IMG/VR virus record: IMGVR_UViG_3300008050_000082
Coordinates: 1-46,214 of that record
Reading direction: 5' to 3' (one strand)
DNA length: 46,214 bases
Origin: a virus
Shown: positions 2,371-45,988 of the stretch, piece by piece
Layout: each line of letters starts with the position of its first letter
Position numbering within the stretch: the stretch's first letter is position 1
Notes under the pieces: generated by a model
Told to the model about the DNA's origin: nothing
What the model saw: the letters and a program-made list of their open reading frames with translations, nothing else
The model's database searches: none
Program-made: the position numbers and the translations under genes

Positions 2371-3018
2371 ATGAGTAAGTATCTTTGGATTCTTGATGCT
2401 GGCCACGGCGGCATCATTGATGGCCTTTATCAAACTGCTGGCAAGCGGTCTCCTGTATGGGAAGATGGCAGCCAGCTTTTCGAAGGTGAATTCAACCGCA
2501 AGGTTCTCGACAGGTTGATTGAGCTTCTTGACGAAGCTGGTTATCAATGGGCCTCTGCTACACTTGGCCAGCAAGATGTTCCGCTTCGCGAACGAACTGA
2601 TTTTGCAAACGACGTATATCGTAGAGAGCGCCAGAAGAGGTCAGGTCGCCTCAAACCAGTCTTCATCTCAATTCATGCTGACGCATTTTCAAAGCCATCC
2701 GCTGGCGGCTGGTCAGTTTATACATCTCCAGGCGAAACACGCTCTGACAAGATTGCTGAAGTTTTTTATGAATCAGCAGAAGAGTCACTACCTGAATTTA
2801 GAATGCGAAGAGATACCAGAGATGGTGATAATGACAAAGAAGCCAATTTCTGGGTGCTTAAGAAAACAGTTATGCCAGCAATCCTAACAGAGAATCTGTT
2901 CATGACAAATCCAGCTGAGTGCAAATTCCTCATGTCAGAGGAAGGTGTGGAGCGAATTGTAGGTCTCCACTTCAACGCAATTCAGCAAATTGAAGAAAGT
3001 AACAAGAGGTACGCATGA
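2371..3018 (+). CDS. N-acetylmuramoyl-L-alanine amidase (Amidase_3), endolysin or tail lysin
   Basis: 215 residues forming a complete zinc amidase domain of the Amidase_3 family, which cuts the amide bond between N-acetylmuramic acid and the peptide stem of peptidoglycan. Visible signatures are LDAGHGG (His12), the Glu near residue 38 in FEGEFNRK, FISIHADA (His102) and ILTENLFMTN (catalytic-type Glu174). There is no signal peptide and no added wall-binding domain. It sits inside the tail block rather than beside a holin, so it could act at lysis or as a tail-borne lysin during entry; the sequence does not settle which. It overlaps the next gene by ATGA. Confidence 0.9.
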   Translation: MSKYLWILDAGHGGIIDGLYQTAGKRSPVWEDGSQLFEGEFNRKVLDRLIELLDEAGYQWASATLGQQDVPLRERTDFANDVYRRERQKRSGRLKPVFISIHADAFSKPSAGGWSVYTSPGETRSDKIAEVFYESAEESLPEFRMRRDTRDGDNDKEANFWVLKKTVMPAILTENLFMTNPAECKFLMSEEGVERIVGLHFNAIQQIEESNKRYA

Positions 3019-3857
3019 GTAACCAAATGGGGATCGACACCCCTGAGCTTAAGGAAACACCATCACAATTCAATGGTGTTCTTGATATTGCAATTCCATT
3101 CGAAACAATCCCACTGCCCTCGCGTGGTTTAGTTTACCCAGAAGACCATCCTTTTTATCAATTGCGTGAGGTAGACATCAAGTGTATGACTACTGCTGAG
3201 GAGGACATTCTTTACTCTGCAGCGCTTGTTAAGGCTGGGCGCGCGCTTGACGAATTAATCAAAGCGTGCCTAATGATCCATGTTGACACCGACACGCTGT
3301 TAGCGGCTGACAGGAACGCGATTGCTGTGGCCATCCGCATCTCGGGCTACGGGTCAGAGTACGAAGCGACTGTAACATGTCCAAGTTGTGATGAAGAATT
3401 CGATGAGCTGTTCAGTATGAACAACTTACCAATTAAAGAGCTTGACAAGGGTGATGTTATTAGGTTGGGTGAGAATGCTTTTAGTTGCAAATTACCCAAG
3501 ACTGGCTTCGATGTCACGTTTAAGCTTGCAACTGGTGCAGATGAAAATGCATTAATCAAGGCGGCTAAAACCAAAAAGCGTATGGGAATGACACGTGGGG
3601 ACACAATGACACGTCGTCTCATGCAGGCGATCATATCTGTCGCCACCCCTAAGGGCCAGACCGAAAATCGAGCGGAAATCAAGAGATTTCTAAATGCGAT
3701 GCCTGCTGCAGATGGTGCTGCGCTTCGGGCAGCAATTAAAGATGTTGAGCCAAAGCTTGAGCTTGTGCAGCCTGTAGTCTGCAAGTTCTGCGATCATGAG
3801 GCAGAATTGGAGATCCCGCTGTCAGCGAAGTTTTTTTGGCCATCCTTCGAAAGCTGA
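3015..3857 (+). CDS. Baseplate hub assembly protein, T4 gp26-like, with zinc ribbon
   Basis: 280 residues. The opening IPLPSRGLVYPEDHPF and the nearby MTTAEEDILYSAALVKAG are signatures of the T4 baseplate protein family that includes gp26, thought to assist hub and tail assembly rather than remain a major structural part. Two Cys pairs, CPSC near residues 122-125 and CKFC near 256-259, could form one zinc ribbon bracketing the middle domain. The gene ends just after a run of seven T's, and the next open frame begins in the +1 frame at that point and lacks its own ribosome site, suggesting frameshift extension as in tail assembly chaperone pairs. Confidence 0.75.
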   Translation: MSNQMGIDTPELKETPSQFNGVLDIAIPFETIPLPSRGLVYPEDHPFYQLREVDIKCMTTAEEDILYSAALVKAGRALDELIKACLMIHVDTDTLLAADRNAIAVAIRISGYGSEYEATVTCPSCDEEFDELFSMNNLPIKELDKGDVIRLGENAFSCKLPKTGFDVTFKLATGADENALIKAAKTKKRMGMTRGDTMTRRLMQAIISVATPKGQTENRAEIKRFLNAMPAADGAALRAAIKDVEPKLELVQPVVCKFCDHEAELEIPLSAKFFWPSFES

Positions 3858-10416: not shown

Positions 10417-11652
10417 ATGGAATATTGTGTTTATACGGTTCTCGGAAGCTCTGCTTTCTGTGAGGGTTATGGTTTTCTTAGCACAATAGATCTACGCGAA
10501 GTGATGCATGCGTCTGACAGCATATTCGTTACACACAATCGCGAGACGCTAGGCACTCAAAAAAGTGTGAATATTCACTATCTCATTAAGCTTTTAGGTG
10601 TTGGTGTGGATATTGGTAGTGTCAAGTTGACAAGCAGAAACAGCATGCTGGTCCAACTTTTCGAGTCTGGAATACGTGCCCACGTTCATGCTGGCATACC
10701 AATCCAGAATTACAAGGTTGATGAGCTATTTCCGCAGCACACTGTAGAAAGTTACCTGCAAGCTCGTACTGCTTTGACAAGAGACATTCTTGATAAGGCA
10801 ATTCTTCTTTCTTTCTTTGATGAGCATTTAGCTTTCTATAATGAGATGATCATTCCGCTTGACAGTGTATTAATTGAGATGGCAAAGCAGCCAGTTTCAA
10901 CAACCACAGGAGCTGAAAAGATTGAAATGTCACCTGCATCAACACGCCTTGGGCGCCTGTCTGTAGTTAGAGGAACAAACATCCTGAATATTAGAAAGCC
11001 TGAACGTAGCAAGTTTGTTAGTAGATTTGATGAGGGTGAATTAGTTCACTACGATTTCAAAGCAATTGATTTTCGCATCGCACTTTTTGATGCAGGCTAT
11101 TCAAAGGTTGCGATGGTAGAAGACCTGTACACACAAATTAAAGAAATGACAGGACTGCCGATGCGCCGCGACAATATCAAAGTGCTTGCGCTTGGCAGGT
11201 TGTATGGAATGGCAATGTCGACTGCAAGTAAGAAGTTTGGGGTGCCACAATCCAGGGTCGAAGAGTACATTACCATGTTTAGCGCCGCATTTCCAGGTAT
11301 TGCAACACGTCGACGAGAGCTCGAAAACGAGTTTGTTGACAATGAGGGTGTAGTTTTCAACTGGTTTGGGCGACCAGTCCACGTTGACAAGCAACGAAAT
11401 GCTTATCAGAATTACATAGCATCAAACACAGCTGATATTTGTAGTCTAGCATATCGCGCTGTATATGAAAATCTAATACAGGATACTGAGCGGAAGGTTG
11501 TTATGTTTCTTCACGACGCGATTATTGTTGATCAAGCGCCAAATACAGAGCGGGGTGACATTGCCCAAATCATGCGGAATATTTTACCAGATTTGGGTAA
11601 GTTCCATGTGAGTATTACAAGCGGTAAAAATCTTATGGAAGCAACTAGTTAA
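10417..11652 (+). CDS. Family A DNA polymerase, polymerase domain only
   Basis: 411 residues, much shorter than E. coli Pol I (928) or T7 gp5 (704). Motif A is seen as YDFKAIDFRIALFD (Asp213), motif B as RRDNIKVLALGRLYG (about 250-264) and motif C as MFLHDAIIVD (His366-Asp367), so both metal-binding aspartates are present; the usual HDE reads HDA. I see no 3'-5' exonuclease motifs in the N-terminal 200 residues, which are unlike other Pol I parts. A separate 5' nuclease gene lies at 18794. It may fill gaps, while the DnaE at 28966 could be the main replicase; this division is inference. Confidence 0.82.
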   Translation: MEYCVYTVLGSSAFCEGYGFLSTIDLREVMHASDSIFVTHNRETLGTQKSVNIHYLIKLLGVGVDIGSVKLTSRNSMLVQLFESGIRAHVHAGIPIQNYKVDELFPQHTVESYLQARTALTRDILDKAILLSFFDEHLAFYNEMIIPLDSVLIEMAKQPVSTTTGAEKIEMSPASTRLGRLSVVRGTNILNIRKPERSKFVSRFDEGELVHYDFKAIDFRIALFDAGYSKVAMVEDLYTQIKEMTGLPMRRDNIKVLALGRLYGMAMSTASKKFGVPQSRVEEYITMFSAAFPGIATRRRELENEFVDNEGVVFNWFGRPVHVDKQRNAYQNYIASNTADICSLAYRAVYENLIQDTERKVVMFLHDAIIVDQAPNTERGDIAQIMRNILPDLGKFHVSITSGKNLMEATS

Positions 11653-25207: not shown

Positions 25208-25615
25208 ATGAAAATCTTCGTTGAAGGCGAAGCCAAGGTCTATTACAAAGACGGTGATTGGGCTGACGAAGGTGCAGATCCAGTTTATTCTTTGTCGGCG
25301 CTGCAATCATTAGTTGGCGCAGTTGGTGAGGAAGAAGAGTTGTCGTTATGCTGGACATCGTATGATGAGCTTGATATGTTTGTGGGTGGCAACTGCTCGT
25401 TTTTCATTCAAGAAGGCCTGCTATGGATAAGAACTGTATTTGAGACAGTTGATCCAAAACACATCCCATCGGCAGATGAACTTGGCCGCTTGACTGGTGT
25501 AACGTCAGACCAGTGGTCTGACGGTTGGGGAAAGGTATTTGAGCAAATCATGTACCGCGGATATTACGTATCACCCTGGTTTTATGACCAAGAGACGATG
25601 GTTAGGGTTCAATAG
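25208..25615 (+). CDS. Unknown acidic protein
   Basis: About 135 residues from ATG 25208, placed 5 bases after GGAG; GTG 25202 is in frame but overlaps that site. Strongly acidic and rich in Trp, Tyr and Phe, with predicted strands in the N-terminal half (KIFVEGEAKVYY). No family recognised. Acidic aromatic small proteins of early phage operons sometimes mimic DNA or bind host enzymes, but nothing here shows that. Confidence 0.6.
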   Translation: MKIFVEGEAKVYYKDGDWADEGADPVYSLSALQSLVGAVGEEEELSLCWTSYDELDMFVGGNCSFFIQEGLLWIRTVFETVDPKHIPSADELGRLTGVTSDQWSDGWGKVFEQIMYRGYYVSPWFYDQETMVRVQ

Positions 25616-25905
25616 TGTACAACAAATATGAATATGCAATTCTAACAGCACTCGAGCAATTGAATGGTGTTGCAACTACACGTAAGCTTGCAAAGCGCGC
25701 CGATGCTATTGCAAATGTAGAAAGTAAATGGTCTTCTACACTTTTTGGACGAACAGCCGCAGGCTATCAAGGAATGCTACAACCATTCTATCGTCATCTC
25801 AATAGTCTTCTTGCTGAGGGCGTGATCACACGAATTTCACGAACGCACATTGCGTTTACAGGTGAAATGGAAGATGCTGGATGGCAACAAGTGAGGGCAA
25901 AATAA
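25615..25905 (+). CDS. Possible winged-helix protein
   Basis: 96 residues from GTG 25615, overlapping the previous stop by one base. YAILTALEQLNGVATTRKLAKR followed after a loop by FYRHLNSLLAEGVITRISRT and a strand gives the helix-helix-wing order of a winged-helix domain, so DNA binding and local regulation are possible. No family name can be given. TAATG joins it to the HslV-like gene. Confidence 0.5.
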   Translation: MYNKYEYAILTALEQLNGVATTRKLAKRADAIANVESKWSSTLFGRTAAGYQGMLQPFYRHLNSLLAEGVITRISRTHIAFTGEMEDAGWQQVRAK

Positions 25906-26432
25906 TGACAGTTATTGCAGGTTTCGCAGGAAGTAATGGCGCAGCAATTGCAAGTGATTCACAAGCCACGTTGGGTGACACACCTTTGAACATGGGATCT
26001 AAGGTGATTAATGCAGGATCATTTCTCGTTGGGATTGCAGGTTTCGCTGCGACACTTGAAGTTGTGCGAAAGAAAATTTCTAATTGGTCTGGTCCATTGA
26101 ATACAAAAGATGATGTTGCAAAGTTTGCTGACTGGATTAAGCAACAGAACATTGATCTTGGTATGCCGGCAGACCAGGCTGATGGATTTGGTTTTGTGCT
26201 TGTTACAAAAGATGCAGCATGGTCAGGGGCGGGCACAGTGATTGTGCTTCCCGGAAAGAACGGTATTGCTGTTTGTGGCAGCGGTGGAACGCATGCCATG
26301 ACTGCTATGAAGCTGCTGTACAAGCGTGATGGTGGTGTTCAATATCCTGAGGATTTTGTTCGTGAAGCTGTTGGTGCAGCTATTGAGCAATCAATCACAT
26401 GTGGCGGTGACATTTTCTCTGAGGCACTTTAG
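25905..26432 (+). CDS. HslV/proteasome-like threonine peptidase homologue
   Basis: 175 residues (E. coli HslV 176). ATG 25905 is chosen because GAGGG lies 7 bases upstream, TAATG joins it to the previous gene, and it leaves Thr as residue 1 after Met removal, the nucleophile of this Ntn-hydrolase family. Counting from Thr1, Asp17 lies in ASDSQATLGDT, nearly identical to HslV AGDGQATLGNT, and Lys32 aligns with catalytic Lys33. GIAGFAATLEV matches VIAGFAGGTAD and VCGSGGTHAMTA matches IGSGGPYA. HslV forms a double hexameric ring gated by HslU. No HslU is encoded here, so it would borrow a host ATPase or act alone. Confidence 0.8.
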   Translation: MTVIAGFAGSNGAAIASDSQATLGDTPLNMGSKVINAGSFLVGIAGFAATLEVVRKKISNWSGPLNTKDDVAKFADWIKQQNIDLGMPADQADGFGFVLVTKDAAWSGAGTVIVLPGKNGIAVCGSGGTHAMTAMKLLYKRDGGVQYPEDFVREAVGAAIEQSITCGGDIFSEAL

Positions 26433-26866
26433 TGGGAACAGAAAAGTTAACAACTTTTAAAGTTACATTTCCCTATAAACCAGGTGATGGTAATGAATCC
26501 ATTGCAGAACAAACCGCAATCTTACAGCTTGATATTCGTAATGGTCACATCTTTTTAAGTGAGAAGACGATTAATAGAAGCCGCGCTTGGACATTGTCAA
26601 GGGAAGTTGCAAAAGAAATCGGCGAAGCGTTTCTGGGTGCCGCGCGTGCTGAACATTCGGGAGTTCCCACCCAAGAACGTTTTGTCGATCCATTTGAGCT
26701 GATAAAGGATATCTTTGTTTCGCCACAGGTGGATAAGAGCTTTGATTCATTTAATGAAAGCATGAAGAAATTGCCAGAGCAGCCTTGTTTGCTTGATGGT
26801 TTTGAGCATGACAGACCAATTGGTCTTGTTTGCCCATGTAAGAAATGCTCAATTTATTGTGGCTAA
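26432..26866 (+). CDS. Unknown protein with Cys-rich C-terminus
   Basis: 144 residues from GTG 26432, sharing one base with the stop of the HslV-like gene. Beta-rich N-terminus (FKVTFPYKPGDGN, TAILQLDIRNGHIFL) and helical middle. The last residues CPCKKCSIYC hold four Cys and may bind a metal. No family recognised; position suggests joint expression with the peptidase homologue, so it could be its partner or substrate adaptor (inference only). Confidence 0.55.
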   Translation: MGTEKLTTFKVTFPYKPGDGNESIAEQTAILQLDIRNGHIFLSEKTINRSRAWTLSREVAKEIGEAFLGAARAEHSGVPTQERFVDPFELIKDIFVSPQVDKSFDSFNESMKKLPEQPCLLDGFEHDRPIGLVCPCKKCSIYCG

Positions 26867-27395
26867 GGGTCAATTACAACAAGATAAATTCATACGCTCC
26901 GGACCTACGCGTCGTCAGCGTGTCGACGCAAAACTTTTACACGCAAAAGTTTTTCCTCTACGCATAGCAACAGTGAATTTTCGTATTGATGAGAATCTTG
27001 GATTTGTTATTCGGGCGGCTGCATGCTTCGGCGCAGAGGGTGTTGATGTTATCGGACATTTGCCAAAGCATCACGTGCTAAAAAATAAAAGCGGTTCAAC
27101 TGTTGACTATCTTGACATTAAACAGTACAGTAACCCAGAGAGTTTTCTTATAAGGTCAGTTGGACGCACGCTTGTTGCTGCTGAATTGCATGAGCGGGCT
27201 GTTAGCTTACACAATTTCCAGTGGCCTACTGGCCCTGTGACAATTATTGTTGGGCATGAAGCTGTTGGCGTACCAACAGCCTTATTGTTAAATTCGCAAA
27301 TTGTTGAGGTTCCCATGCCTGGTATGGGTGTTTGTCTCAACACTTCACAAGCAGCCAATGTGTTGTTGTATGATTACACTTTAAAGCGAGGTTAA
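26859..27395 (+). CDS. SPOUT (TrmH/SpoU) 2'-O-ribose RNA methyltransferase
   Basis: About 178 residues from GTG 26859, overlapping the previous gene by 8 bases; the frame stays open to 26793, so the start is uncertain. The three SpoU motifs are present in order: ENLGFVIRAAACFG (motif 1), VTIIVGHEAVGVP (motif 2) and VEVPMPGMGVCLNTSQAANV (motif 3, with the S-adenosylmethionine-binding knot). Family members methylate ribose 2'-OH in tRNA or rRNA. The usual motif 2 GNE is GHE here. The target in infected cells is unknown; tRNA changes or translation control are possible. Confidence 0.8.
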   Translation: MAKGQLQQDKFIRSGPTRRQRVDAKLLHAKVFPLRIATVNFRIDENLGFVIRAAACFGAEGVDVIGHLPKHHVLKNKSGSTVDYLDIKQYSNPESFLIRSVGRTLVAAELHERAVSLHNFQWPTGPVTIIVGHEAVGVPTALLLNSQIVEVPMPGMGVCLNTSQAANVLLYDYTLKRG

Positions 27396-27396
27396 A

Positions 27397-27615
27397 ATGC
27401 CAACGTACGTAGTAATTGGAAATGCCAACGTAGAAGTCCAAGTAACACTTGAGGCTGATAGCGAGGATGAGGCCCTTTTGCTTGCAGAAGAAATATGCCC
27501 AGAGCTAACAGCATACTACGGCAATGGTGGGGTTGACAAGCTGGTTGGTGTAGATCAAAGCAATGTCAGTCTTGAGCCGTACGGCGTCGATTTTACAATA
27601 GTCATGGAAGAATAA
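27397..27615 (+). CDS. Unknown small acidic protein
   Basis: 72 residues. Beta-strand start TYVVIGNANVEVQVTLEADSE with alternating residues, then a helix DEALLLAEEIC, reminiscent of small ferredoxin-like folds. Strongly acidic. GAGG precedes the ATG. TAATG joins it to the GMP reductase-like gene. No family recognised. Confidence 0.6.
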   Translation: MPTYVVIGNANVEVQVTLEADSEDEALLLAEEICPELTAYYGNGGVDKLVGVDQSNVSLEPYGVDFTIVMEE

Positions 27616-28634
27616 TGGCAGTTGTTGTTGCACAAGAGGCATTTACATATGATGATGTAATTCTTTCGCCACGATTTTCTAATGTTCAATCACGTAGGCA
27701 AGTTTCGCTGAAGACATCCATCAATGGTCTAAGTTTAGAGTTGCCGATAATCGCGGCCAACATGGATACAATTTCAGGCATTGAAATGTTTACTGCAATG
27801 ACAGCAAAGGGCATCGGGGGCTTTGCATATCTGCATCGCTTTACAACACTTGAGGAGAGGCTTGCTTGGGCAAAAGCTGGTCTCCCTGTCACAATCGGCG
27901 TTGGTACAAACGAATTACTTTTTATCAAGGATGCCATTGCTGCGGGTGCTCGCCACTTCTTGATTGATATTGCGCATGGCGATTCGCAGCACGTTCTTGC
28001 CATGATTAGATTAGTTAGAGATTCTGTAGAAGATCGCTCTGAACTTACAATCGTAGCTGGAAATGTTGCCACACCAGAAGCTGCCTGGCGCTTGTACGAC
28101 GCTGGAGCAAATGTGATTAAGGTTGGTGTAGGCCCTGGTGCTGTCTGCACAACGCGATCAGTCACAGGTCATGGGTTCCCTCAGTTATCTGCAATCTTAA
28201 ACATTAAAGAATCAATTGAAAATCGCGTGTCAATAATTGCTGACGGAGGAATCAAAACGTCAGGTGATATCGTGAAAGCACTTGCAGCAGGCGCTGATGC
28301 TGTCATGATTGGCGGGCTCCTAGCAGGGACAGACGAGACTCCCGGGGCAGTGATTGATACACCGGACGGTAAGTTCAAAGTATATCGGGGCATGGCTTCA
28401 AAGGAAGCATACAACGATAATCCAAATCGAACAAGCTCGCATATAGCTGCAGAAGGAATCAACACCACAGTGCCCTACGCCGGCCCAGTCGCAAATGTCG
28501 TGCTGGAGCTAGCAGCCGGCGTGAGGTCAGGCCTATCATATTCAGGTGCATCTAATCTACGAATCCTTCGTGATAATGCAGTTTTTCAACGCATTTCAAG
28601 TGGAACAAGACTAGAGAATTCAACTAGACTGTGA
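27615..28634 (+). CDS. GMP reductase / IMP dehydrogenase family enzyme
   Basis: 339 residues, without the CBS domains of most IMP dehydrogenases. The start [18 protein letters not shown] and [12 protein letters not shown] are family signatures; the catalytic loop [15 protein letters not shown] has Cys178. [18 protein letters not shown] and the C-terminal [11 protein letters not shown] resemble GMP reductase (GMP plus NADPH to IMP) more than IMP dehydrogenase (IMP to XMP), and the flap lacks the Arg-Tyr pair of the latter. I favour GMP reductase at moderate confidence. Either enzyme would shift the host purine pool. It ends just before a promoter-like site. Confidence 0.82.
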
Positions 28635-28958: not shown

Positions 28959-28965
28959 ATTGGGA

Positions 28966-31900
28966 ATGACAAATAGAAAAGATCCGAGATTCGTCGGGCT
29001 CCACGGTCACAGTGGATTTTCGATAGGCGATGGATTCGGCAAACCCGAAGAGCACATTGATTTTGCACTGCAAAACGGGATGGACGCACTTGCCCTGACT
29101 GACCACGGTCATATGAACGGCTTCCCACACCAGTATCTTCATGCTAAGAAGTTGGGTTCTGCCTTTAAGCCAGTTTATGGCTTTGAGGGCTACTTTCATC
29201 CAAGTCTTGAGCAGTGGGAGGCAGACCGTGAGGATGCAAAACTCCGAAAGGCCCATATTGTAGACGATGAAAAAGTAGCACTTGAGGATGAGGAGGAGTC
29301 GAAGAAGGCCAAGTGGTTCAATCCGGTCAATCGACGTCATCATCTTGTAACGCTGGCTAAATCTGCCAAGGGATTGAAGAACGTCTTTACCCTGGTCTCC
29401 CGCGGTTACAAGGAGGGAATGTATCGATTCCCACGTTTTGATTTTAATATGCTGAAGGAGCATGGAGAAGACGTCATCGTAACATCTGCTTGCCTTGGCG
29501 GCCCATTCTCATATGAGGTATTGAAGGGTTTCCATGATGACCTATCACCCGAGCAAATTCAACTGGAGCTCGCTAATCTCGCCGACAGATTCGTTGACGC
29601 AGTCGGGCAGGAAAACTTCTACCTTGAAGTACAGTTTAACGACATTCCCATCCAGCATCAGGTCAATGAACAGCTCCTCCGCGCAAGCATCGACTTTGGT
29701 ATCCCTCTCGTGGCAACCGCAGATTCACATTATCCGTCACCGGATAAGTGGCGGGCCAGGGAGGTCTACAAGCGCATCTCATGGATGGGGAAGAAGGAAC
29801 ACACACTAGACGATCTTCCTGACGATATTGATGATATGCAGTACCAGCTCTATCCTAAGAATGGGGAAGAGATGTGGCGTTATTGGGAGAAGTATCGTGA
29901 TGCGCACCCTGAGTACTACGAGCAGTTTGAACATAATGATTTGAACAAGCGCATCTGGGATGCTATTGATATTACACATGATATTGCACATCAGCAGATT
30001 GGCGCTGTCAGTCCCGATACTGCGACGAAGATTTTTACCTACGCAACGCCTACCAAGACAAGCCAGCAGATCCTACGTGAGAAGTGTGAACAGGCATTAA
30101 GGGAGTCGCCACATACTGGCAAGAACAAATATTGGGACCGTCTTGAAGTTGAGCTTGGTGTAATTGGCGATCGTGATTTTGCTGATTACTTCCTTTGCTA
30201 CGAACGTATTGCAATCCGACTAAAGGAGCGCATGTTAATGGGTCCGGGCCGAGGCTCTGGTGCGGGGTCATTAGTTTGTTATCTTCTTGATATTACGGAG
30301 CTCGATCCAATTCAATATGGTCTACTCTTCGAGAGGTTCATTAGCAGATTTCGAAAGGGCTTTCCGGATATTGATTCGGACGTCGCAAGTAAAGAGCTGG
30401 CAGTTGAGATTTTGAGGGATGAGTTTGGTGATGATAATGTCATTACAATCTCAAACTACAACCGACTCCAGCTGAAATCCTTGATTAAAGATGTTTCAAA
30501 GTTCTTTGATATTCCTTATCAGGAAGTTAACGCTGTAACAAAGCGCGTCGAACCTGAGGTCAAGGCAAAGGTTTTGAAGAAGGGCATGGACAAGAACCTT
30601 TTCTATCTTACATATGATTTGGCATTTGAGCACAGTCCCACGTTTCAGAAATACGTTTGTGATTATCCGGAAGCTGCAGCGCACATTCGTGACCTCTTCC
30701 AGCAACTCAAGGCAATTAGCCGCCACGCTGGTGGTGTGCTAATTTACGACCAGCTGGAAGGCACCATGCCAGTGATCAAGATTCGTGGTGAGTGTCAGGC
30801 TCCTTGGACAGAAGGTCTTCACTATAAGCATCTTCCAGAGCTTGGTTTCATTAAGTTTGATGTCCTTGGTCTTGAGACACTGCGTGTGATTGAGCTTGCG
30901 ATCCGCAATGTACTCATTTCACAGGGTAATCCGAATCCAACTTTTGCAGAAGTACGTACATTTTACGATAAGAACTTGCGCGCTGACGTCATTGACGATG
31001 CTGATATGAAGGTTCTAAAGAATGTATACTGGCAAGGAAAGTTCCCTGCAATCTTCCAGTTCACAGAGGATGGCGCCCAAAAACTAATTAAGCGTATTCG
31101 GCCTGAGATGGTCTTGGACATCGCCACTGGTACGTCAATCTATCGACCAGGTCCTCTGGCTGCTGAAATTGGACCCAAAAAGCTCGGTGTTGACAAGGTC
31201 TATATTAATCGTCGAAGAGGTGAAGCATTCACATACGATCATCCTGCAATTGAGAAAGTGTTGTCGCCAACAAACGGCGTAATCATTTTCCAGGAGCAGA
31301 TGATGCAGCTGGCCCACGAGCTGGCAGGCATGGATTTAAATGATTGTGACCGTCTCCGAAAGGCCATCGTTAAGCGATCTATGGATGGGAAAGGTAAGGC
31401 AGAGCAAGAGAGGCGTGCTCTGAATCTACAGTTTGTTGAAGGCTGCGTCAATGCTGGCTTAGATGTGCTTAAGGCCCAAAAGCTTTGGGATGATATGGAA
31501 CTCTTTGCAGGCTACGGTTTTAATAAGAGTCACGCTCTTGCCTATGCTTTCGATAGCTACATCTGCGCATGGCTCTTCACATACTATCCAAACGAATGGA
31601 TGGCTGCATTCCTTGAGACATACTCTGAGAAGGGTGATAAAAAGAAGGCACGGGCATTCTCAACGGCCAAGTCGTTTGGCTACGAAGTTGTGCTGCCTGA
31701 TATCAATCAGGCTGGCTGGGGCTGGACAGCAATTGAGGATGAGGTTGGCGTAAAGCTAATGTCCTCCTTTAGTCCGGTGAAGCGAGTGGGTGATAAGGCC
31801 GTTGAGGAGATTATGGCCAATCGTCCGTTCAGAGCAATTGACGAAGTGTTCTGGCGCGATGATAATACATTCTGGCCAAGTAAGATGAATAAGGGTTGTG

Positions 31901-32541
31901 TTGATGCGTTGATTAAGATTAAGGCATTCGACAGCCTTAGTATTATTGGTGAGGGTAAACTGTTCGATAATTATGCTCACATGCATGCTGTCATCGTTGG
32001 TCACTGGGATGAGATTAAGAAACGCCTGCTGAAGCGCTCACCAGAACGTAATGGCCATGCACGCTTTTATGAGCTTATTGAAGAGTATCGCGGTAAGGTT
32101 GAACCTTGGACACGTGAGGAACAGATTGAGTTTTATGAGACTGTTTATGGCAGCGTTAACATTGATCTAATCTTAAACGACGAACTAGTTGAAAAGCTCA
32201 GTGCGCTTGGTGTCGATGGTATTCATGATTATCATGAGATTCCTGAGGGTTATGAGGGTGAAATTGAAGATCTAGTGTCAGAGAGTAAGGTCGTTTGGTT
32301 TATTATTCGTGAAGTTAACATTCGCACTACAAAGCGTGGTAAGCCATTTGCAAAACTACGTGTGATGGGTAGTGATGGTAATCTGCACTGGATGACATAC
32401 TGGGGATATAATGCAAAGTACGACACAGCTAAGCTTACAAAGAATGCTGTTGTTGCAGCGCGCCTGAAGTACGACGATAACTGGGGATTTTCAACACCTT
32501 GGGGTGGACGACTATCCCGCCTTGACACATTGGTGGATTAA
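28966..32541 (+). CDS. dnaE: DNA polymerase III alpha subunit (family C, DnaE type)
   Basis: About 1191 residues, matching bacterial DnaE (E. coli 1160). The N-terminal PHP domain opens FVGLHGHSGFSIGDG and continues ALALTDHGHMNGF, keeping metal-binding His/Asp residues, so it may be active. The polymerase core shows GPGRGSGAGSLVCYLL and FPDIDSDV (two catalytic Asp near residues 468-473), SRHAGGVLI, and GYGFNKSHALAYA. Near the C-terminus an OB-fold-like stretch follows (VVWFIIREVNIRTTKRG). The start may instead be TTG 28960, which lies closer to AGGAAAG. Such a replicase is uncommon in T4-like phages, which use family B. Confidence 0.93.
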   Translation: MTNRKDPRFVGLHGHSGFSIGDGFGKPEEHIDFALQNGMDALALTDHGHMNGFPHQYLHAKKLGSAFKPVYGFEGYFHPSLEQWEADREDAKLRKAHIVDDEKVALEDEEESKKAKWFNPVNRRHHLVTLAKSAKGLKNVFTLVSRGYKEGMYRFPRFDFNMLKEHGEDVIVTSACLGGPFSYEVLKGFHDDLSPEQIQLELANLADRFVDAVGQENFYLEVQFNDIPIQHQVNEQLLRASIDFGIPLVATADSHYPSPDKWRAREVYKRISWMGKKEHTLDDLPDDIDDMQYQLYPKNGEEMWRYWEKYRDAHPEYYEQFEHNDLNKRIWDAIDITHDIAHQQIGAVSPDTATKIFTYATPTKTSQQILREKCEQALRESPHTGKNKYWDRLEVELGVIGDRDFADYFLCYERIAIRLKERMLMGPGRGSGAGSLVCYLLDITELDPIQYGLLFERFISRFRKGFPDIDSDVASKELAVEILRDEFGDDNVITISNYNRLQLKSLIKDVSKFFDIPYQEVNAVTKRVEPEVKAKVLKKGMDKNLFYLTYDLAFEHSPTFQKYVCDYPEAAAHIRDLFQQLKAISRHAGGVLIYDQLEGTMPVIKIRGECQAPWTEGLHYKHLPELGFIKFDVLGLETLRVIELAIRNVLISQGNPNPTFAEVRTFYDKNLRADVIDDADMKVLKNVYWQGKFPAIFQFTEDGAQKLIKRIRPEMVLDIATGTSIYRPGPLAAEIGPKKLGVDKVYINRRRGEAFTYDHPAIEKVLSPTNGVIIFQEQMMQLAHELAGMDLNDCDRLRKAIVKRSMDGKGKAEQERRALNLQFVEGCVNAGLDVLKAQKLWDDMELFAGYGFNKSHALAYAFDSYICAWLFTYYPNEWMAAFLETYSEKGDKKKARAFSTAKSFGYEVVLPDINQAGWGWTAIEDEVGVKLMSSFSPVKRVGDKAVEEIMANRPFRAIDEVFWRDDNTFWPSKMNKGCVDALIKIKAFDSLSIIGEGKLFDNYAHMHAVIVGHWDEIKKRLLKRSPERNGHARFYELIEEYRGKVEPWTREEQIEFYETVYGSVNIDLILNDELVEKLSALGVDGIHDYHEIPEGYEGEIEDLVSESKVVWFIIREVNIRTTKRGKPFAKLRVMGSDGNLHWMTYWGYNAKYDTAKLTKNAVVAARLKYDDNWGFSTPWGGRLSRLDTLVD

Positions 32542-44368: not shown

Positions 44369-45988
44369 ATGTTTTGGGAAGAAGAAGATTTTGAGCGTTA
44401 TCTTGGACGCTTGGGAAAAACTAATACTGCGCTTCCGGGTTTCTTTATTCCGCTGAAGCAAGTTGTGCGTTCGCTTGTCCAGCCGAGAAAAGGTCTGCTT
44501 TCAAAGCTCGACGCAGGATTTGATATCGCAGATGCTGTCAAGCAGTACCGCGAGTCGATTGAGAATACTGACGATTACGAAATTGAAGAAGACATTGACC
44601 ATGTTGACTTGTGGCTTGAAGATAACGACTGCTACATGCTGACAGAGGATAGAGCAGGCGCCGAGCTTGTTCGTGAAATCCTCATCCCTTGCGTTAAGGG
44701 CCTGAAGCGTGAGCGAATCAAGATCAAGAATGCAGAAGGACAAATCCTGGCAACGGAGGTCATTGCTTTCACATACGAGTTTGAAGGAACTGTTGATTAC
44801 TTTGCTGTGAAATACGAGGTCGGCAGAAGGAAGAATACCGCCGCCACTCGCTCCGGTGAGGCGCATGAAGATTCTGATGAGGAATTGCTGCGCTGGTCAA
44901 GCGGGCCATACTTTCATATCAAAGATTCTGATGATTCTGACATGGGGATATCGCGAAAACGATTCAACGATTGGTTGACAAAGGCATTTTGGGATTTCTA
45001 TGGCTCGTCTGTTGTAGAGATCGATTTCCAGGCAACCTACCATGGTGATCGACCAATCATCAACGCTGAGAACGACGTCAAGAACTATATTGGACTTGGC
45101 GGAACGCTGGCTGAAGTTGAGCAGGTTGCTGAAGATACGAGTCTCTTCATGGAGGCTGGCTTTTCTAGATCAATCATGCTGCTGGGCCCACCTGGGGTTG
45201 GCAAGACGACTCTCACACGCGTGATCAACAATCACCTGAGCGGCCGCTGCGTAATTTTGAAGCCAAGCTTCTTTAGAAAGACGAACGGAACAGGGCCCGA
45301 AATCCTGGCAATGCTTGCCCCGAATGTGGTTGTGTTCGATGACTTTGATAGATATGATGTGGACAACAGGGCCCTCCTTCAGATGCTTGAGTGGCTCCCA
45401 AAGAGATTGAGCCCTGTAATTACTGTTGCAACTGTCAACGACATTACAAAGTTTGATAGGGCAGGCTTGCGCCCAGGTCGGTTTGACGAGCTTGTCTATG
45501 TTCCTGCGCCTGACGCGAATGGGCGCAAGATCGTTCTTGATTACTATCTCGATCTGTATAGCACTGACACGAGCAAATCAATTGTTGGTAGTGATTACGC
45601 GCAGATTACAGATTACGTTTGCAAGAATGGCGCTGGAATGACGCCTGCAGACATTGCAGAGCTCGTCAAGACACTGACTGTGTTGGGTCCGAAATTGTTC
45701 ATGGTAAAGTTTCGTGCACTGGCTCGACAGCGCGCCATCTACATGCAGATCTTTGATGAAACGCAGAAGCTGTGGTCCATGTCTACAGCTGGTGAAGATG
45801 TTGATATCACTGAGCCTGGGCTGGTTGCTGTTGATACAAAATTCTCACAAGCAGATATGGAATGGCCCGTGCCGGATCCCGAGGACCTGCCCGACGCTGA
45901 ATTTGATTCGGCTGTTGCACATTTCACAGATGACTATGAAACTAATACATGTATGTGTGGTATTAGAGATTGCGTACTTGCAGTATGA
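44369..45988 (+). CDS. BCS1-like AAA+ ATPase
   Basis: 539 residues. The N-terminal 250 residues are unlike known adaptor domains to my eye. The AAA core has Walker A LLGPPGVGKTT (about 271-281), Walker B NVVVFDDFD (319-327), sensor 1 ATVND (Asn357) and LRPGRFDE with Arg finger-type residues (367-374), the arrangement in BCS1/ftsH-type AAA proteins. The C-terminal tail is acidic and ends CMCGIRDCVL. These hexameric machines unfold or move proteins. It has no HslU-type features and no sign of pairing with the HslV-like protein at 25905. Confidence 0.82.
   Translation: MFWEEEDFERYLGRLGKTNTALPGFFIPLKQVVRSLVQPRKGLLSKLDAGFDIADAVKQYRESIENTDDYEIEEDIDHVDLWLEDNDCYMLTEDRAGAELVREILIPCVKGLKRERIKIKNAEGQILATEVIAFTYEFEGTVDYFAVKYEVGRRKNTAATRSGEAHEDSDEELLRWSSGPYFHIKDSDDSDMGISRKRFNDWLTKAFWDFYGSSVVEIDFQATYHGDRPIINAENDVKNYIGLGGTLAEVEQVAEDTSLFMEAGFSRSIMLLGPPGVGKTTLTRVINNHLSGRCVILKPSFFRKTNGTGPEILAMLAPNVVVFDDFDRYDVDNRALLQMLEWLPKRLSPVITVATVNDITKFDRAGLRPGRFDELVYVPAPDANGRKIVLDYYLDLYSTDTSKSIVGSDYAQITDYVCKNGAGMTPADIAELVKTLTVLGPKLFMVKFRALARQRAIYMQIFDETQKLWSMSTAGEDVDITEPGLVAVDTKFSQADMEWPVPDPEDLPDAEFDSAVAHFTDDYETNTCMCGIRDCVLAV

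Follow-up and report, generated by a model that had tools for sequence, protein, structure and literature searches.

A divergent proteasome-like N-terminal-threonine hydrolase encoded by a tailed phage with T4-like parts

Described proteasome-like proteins of bacteria and phages

Fuchs, Alva and Lupas described 22 new proteasome homologues in 2021 (PMC8665760). PPH was placed in Caudovirales and their hosts, AAH and CPH were also found in phages, and no co-occurring AAA+ partner was reported for the new families (PMC8665760). A Salmonella jumbo phage has been reported with two HslV-like genes and without HslU. In the literature searched, no function was found for any phage proteasome-like protein.

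The betaproteobacterial protein BPH (PDB 5ovs, 5ovt and 5ovu) is the best structural match to the phage protein discussed here. BPH forms a heptameric double ring, is devoid of an HslU interface, and no unfoldase has been found for it. Measurements on its mature form demonstrated that the start Met alone is lost. The enzyme was inert in vitro on peptides and casein, though epoxomicin modified Thr1.

Relatives of this kind are widespread in phages. A tblastn search with the proteasome-like protein of Vibrio phage S4-7 matched 703 of the 50,697 GenBank phage records, many of them annotated as HslV family peptidase. True HslV in the same collection appears to stem from contaminating bacterial DNA, the records being short and either unannotated or named after bacteria. 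The first-pass annotation of the present gene had called it unusual for a phage; with hundreds of records matching a relative, and with the families already described in PMC8665760, this kind of gene is not rare.

No shared partner gene was found near the phage relatives. In S4-7, Eryne and 424E50-1, a PhoH-family gene precedes the proteasome-like gene by at most about 1.5 kb (loci L002:5863-6660, L005:1221-1973 and L163:304-1698; the S4-7 PhoH gene was identified by eye); most others have no PhoH gene nearby. In Aeromonas phage 4L372XY, two genes that are both annotated as HslV family peptidase lie side by side and differ greatly in sequence (L006:1932-2483 and 2501-3328), and a hetero-oligomer of the two products is possible. 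The "BPH" of phage RXM, at 140 aa, is PPH-sized and was rejected as a phage BPH.

The gene, its catalytic residues and its predicted fold

The window, that is, the whole stretch of 46,214 nucleotides that was analysed, is a fragment from a tailed phage, and the T4-like parts in it include a T4-type baseplate protein and a gp32-like protein. It also encodes RecA- and DnaB-like proteins, a member of the RNA ligase/tail-fibre attachment family, a thymidylate synthase and a dCMP deaminase. The peptidase gene lies within a nucleotide-metabolism and replication cluster, where its neighbours include a nucleotide pyrophosphohydrolase, a ribonucleotide reductase, an IMPDH/GMP reductase and DnaE. Because its start and stop overlap both adjacent frames (Table 1), and because GAGG stands eight bases 5' of its ATG at 25905, it probably belongs to a transcript on which the genes are closely packed. 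An alternative start, the ATG at 25881, would add eight residues, and in this possible longer form the Thr would sit behind these residues and the Met.

Table 1. Coordinates of the peptidase gene, its flanking frames and its predicted functional residues in the window
Feature	Position	Strand	Remark
Proteasome-like N-terminal-threonine hydrolase gene	25905..26432	+	175 aa plus stop
96-aa ORF upstream of the peptidase, no known family	25615..25905	+	overlaps peptidase start (TAATG)
144-aa ORF downstream of the peptidase, no known family	26432..26866	+	overlaps peptidase stop (TAGTG)
Thr codon (Thr2, Met = 1; HslV Thr1), predicted nucleophile after Met loss	25908..25910	+	invariant alignment column
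Asp18 (HslV Asp17)	25956..25958	+	alignment
Lys33 (HslV Lys33)	26001..26003	+	alignment, one-residue gap against HslV
Predicted pore-loop region, residues 85-94 LGMPADQADG	26157..26186	+	six-residue insertion vs HslV

Other genes of the fragment deserve mention in their own right. Directly downstream of the peptidase cluster is a SpoU-type RNA 2'-O-methyltransferase (TrmH/RlmB-like, 26793-27395), and the IMP dehydrogenase/GMP reductase homologue (339 aa, 27615-28634) is of a type uncommon in phages. The fragment encodes two DNA polymerases, a family A-like domain (411 aa, 10417-11652) and a full-length DnaE (1193 aa, 28960-32541); among the matches listed, the latter has at most about 31% identity to phage DnaE.

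The protein begins Met-Thr, without a propeptide, and removal of Met1 is expected to expose the Thr at the mature N-terminus. When one bacterial HslV is aligned with 27 relatives from IMG/VR, the Thr never varies, and conservation of the Asp and of the Lys is at least 90%. The oxyanion-hole glycine (in AGF) and the motif GSG also occupy conserved columns; the Thr, Asp, Lys and oxyanion glycine that define an N-terminal nucleophile enzyme are thus all in conserved positions. The Asp is at position 17 from the Thr, as in HslV, and the Lys is 32 from the Thr, so that its match to HslV Lys33, invariant in one alignment, requires a one-residue gap; a forced alignment to HslV puts the Lys off by one. 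With this gap for the Lys, the intact catalytic residues first proposed from the DNA letters are borne out, as are the motifs ASDSQATLG, GIAGFAATLEV and CGSGGTHAM and the HslV-like length, all of which were found in the 175-aa translation.

Sequence comparisons place the homology of the peptidase to proteasome and HslV proteins well above chance. The PHROG family phrog_1040 ("peptidase HslV family") matches residues 1-173 with an E value of 3.5e-16, Pfam PF00227 (Proteasome) scores 24.4 bits with a cut-off of 22.4, and a search of PDB sequences returned HslV chains from E 1e-3. The protein almost certainly belongs to the proteasome-like class.

These matches are independent of the alignment used for structure prediction, so that this family-guided alignment cannot have created them. 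The AlphaFold2 monomer model was built from 29 rows (the query, the 27 IMG/VR relatives and the one HslV); the rows are 22-34% identical to the peptidase, and the model is partly family-guided. It is confident (mean pLDDT 88.8, pTM 0.85), and a poor single-sequence model (pLDDT 35.3) was left unused. A Foldseek search of the PDB gave BPH 5ovt as the best match (TM 0.79, E 3.5e-10), followed by HslV (6kui at 0.73; HslV range 0.62-0.73) and 20S beta subunits. At E <= 0.001 there were 1024 PDB structure matches, and the best 50 of these 1024 are all BPH, HslV or 20S proteasome. In BFVD, 30 viral proteins matched at the same threshold, many of them from phages; one bears the name HslV peptidase and another proteasome subunit beta. 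A proteasome-like beta-sheet core flanked by helix pairs is seen in the model, whose helices (47-50, 52-58, 68-84, 128-140 and 148-160) correspond to H1-H4. Thus, the proteasome/HslV-like fold that had been claimed is present in the model.

Affinities within the family and the pore region

The peptidase resembles HslV (ClpQ) in length, catalytic residues, the QATLG, AGFA and GSGG motifs and fold (TM about 0.7). However, with the NCBIfam HslV models it reaches 25.4 bits (cut-off 137) and 23.4 bits (cut-off 157.75), far below what either requires, and TCGGDI stands where HslV has its C-terminal IYTN region. The basic pore cluster of HslV, Arg86/Arg89/Lys90, is not kept: Arg86 corresponds to Gln81 and Arg89 to Asp84, and Lys90 has no basic counterpart. 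The insertion listed in Table 1 stands where this cluster would be; the region sits between the model helix 68-84 and the strand 95-100, with a short helix at 89-92, and together with the preceding Asp84 it holds three Asp. Judged from these sequence features, the peptidase is not HslV. Of the original label, "HslV/proteasome-like", the broader proteasome-like part holds, and identity with HslV itself does not (25 vs 137 bits, pore cluster replaced).

Like the peptidase, BPH has the Thr1/Asp/Lys site, no propeptide and a pore loop longer than that of HslV, and in it the HslV basic cluster is not kept either. In fold and pore loop the peptidase thus leans towards BPH. The two differ in that identity in the structural alignment is about 15%, and BPH is chromosomal whereas the peptidase is phage-borne. 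Runs of up to five acidic residues occur in the BPH loop; that of the peptidase is only moderately acidic, with its three Asp nearby. Furthermore, the heptameric double ring is established for BPH, while the phage protein is known here from its sequence and a monomer model.

The closest true-phage matches in tblastn are of the PPH type, with S4-7 at E 6e-3. PPH proteins, which are PHROG 1040-like, are likewise phage-borne, with the same catalytic residues and a C-terminal GG[D/E]I-type strand common to both, but they are about 140 aa long and without helix H2, whereas the peptidase has 175 aa, a predicted H2 and a longer H3-H4 stretch. In a tree, it falls outside 40 PPH-type rows, at an unresolved fork with HslV and on a long branch. 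Its size, its modelled H2 and its position outside the PPH clade as sampled set it apart from a typical PPH. AAH and CPH, which are compared here by description only, are also group I, compact and found in phages, and the peptidase may be a member of either. It is best placed as a group I proteasome-like homologue outside HslV and typical PPH.

Two tools were rejected as guides to the subfamily. phrog_1040 does not discriminate PPH from HslV, as it also matches most sampled alphaproteobacterial genomes, where the matches inspected were HslV bar one PPH-like sequence. Profiles built for this work gave the peptidase 42 bits on PPH and 31 bits on HslV, a gap that is not decisive, as E. coli HslV itself obtains 48 bits on the PPH profile.

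Searches for nearer kin gave little. Scans of IMG/VR and genome contigs with a single sequence or a two-row alignment found no close relatives, a plasmid search returned none, and motif scans gave mostly chance matches, together with a few PPH and one HslV. No sibling virus was found by DnaE in IMG/VR or by DNA similarity in GenBank phages, and tblastn with a 773-aa ORF of the fragment, also in search of siblings, gave no match.

Proposed function and its meaning for phages

Because the basic cluster is lost and the predicted pore loop is longer and moderately acidic, resembling that of BPH, joining of a host HslUV is less likely than independent assembly. The phage subunit might still enter host HslUV, either as an HslU-driven replacement of HslV or as a poison in mixed rings, and its HslV-like length, four predicted helices and common QATLG and GSGG motifs would suit such a role. 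The absence of HslU from the window, as first stated, was confirmed by a Walker-A scan of the long frames of the 46-kb fragment, which returned RecA-like and DnaB-like proteins, one AAA ATPase and one unrelated match; the window yielded no recognisable unfoldase of the phage itself, which also favours a host partner. With the score of 25 bits against a cut-off of 137, the lost basic cluster and lengthened pore loop, TCGGDI in place of the IYTN region, and BPH as the closest structure, this option is distinctly unlikely. The insertion into host HslUV offered in the first-pass annotation is weakened accordingly, and its option of a peptidase acting alone is the likelier one.

The explanation that is preferred as a whole, and that seems reasonably probable, is a group I N-terminal-threonine hydrolase that builds its own ring and cuts without HslU; that the peptidase is independent and HslU-free is, taken by itself, about an even call. 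Host methionine aminopeptidase would remove Met1 and free Thr1, and the subunits would form their own single or double ring, both as in BPH. Substrates would then enter without HslU, and during infection the chamber would cleave peptides or a limited range of proteins, either unfolded or specific. Since the gene lies among nucleotide and replication genes, its product more likely acts early or midway in infection, in the turnover of host or phage proteins, than in particle building. Against this explanation, the closest phage relatives, which are without H2, may be unable to build rings of the proteasome type, and an unfoldase may lie outside the 46-kb fragment.

The only candidate unfoldase noticed in the fragment is the AAA ATPase at 44369-45988 (539 aa; Pfam AAA, E 5.9e-13). 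It weakly resembles proteins of the PAN/CDC48/FtsH type, and no domain was recognised in its long N-terminal part. The idea of a chamber fed by a non-HslU AAA+ ATPase of phage or host, for example this protein, draws on its AAA domain and on its best NCBIfam match, the proteasome-activating nucleotidase, although at 46.7 of 500 bits this match is far below the cut-off. The gene is 18 kb off, its AAA similarity is generic, the protein ends without the hydrophobic-Tyr-X tail, and tblastn found no match for it in the GenBank phage collection, all of which makes such a partnership quite unlikely.

The inertness of BPH on standard substrates means that proteolysis does not follow from an intact site, and since its Thr1 was nevertheless modified by epoxomicin, the phage peptidase may well accept few substrates or depend on a further cofactor. 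The same inertness on generic substrates agrees with a monomeric or small-oligomer Ntn hydrolase of restricted function, such as processing of one protein, amide hydrolysis or connectase-like ligation; among proteasome-like homologues, connectase is indeed a monomeric ligase, and some other forms are considered unable to build rings. However, the model has no connectase-type insertion between strands 3 and 4, and H1-H4 are all predicted, as in ring-forming group I members, so that this alternative is unlikely.

Returning to the self-assembling, HslU-free chamber, a bolder extension is that the peptidase founds a phage lineage of full-length (H1-H4) subunits between PPH and BPH/HslV, which would form an unfoldase-independent chamber that remodels the host proteome; this idea is speculative and rather unlikely. 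The peptidase itself is a new divergent example of an already known kind of phage family, functionally uncharacterised. Phage proteasome-like proteins are widespread, with hundreds of genomes encoding them, and the finding corrects the view of such genes as rare or bound to act via host HslUV. As a full-length member with an intact site, encoded in a T4-like replication cassette, this protein is a fair candidate for asking whether phages build their own proteolytic chambers.
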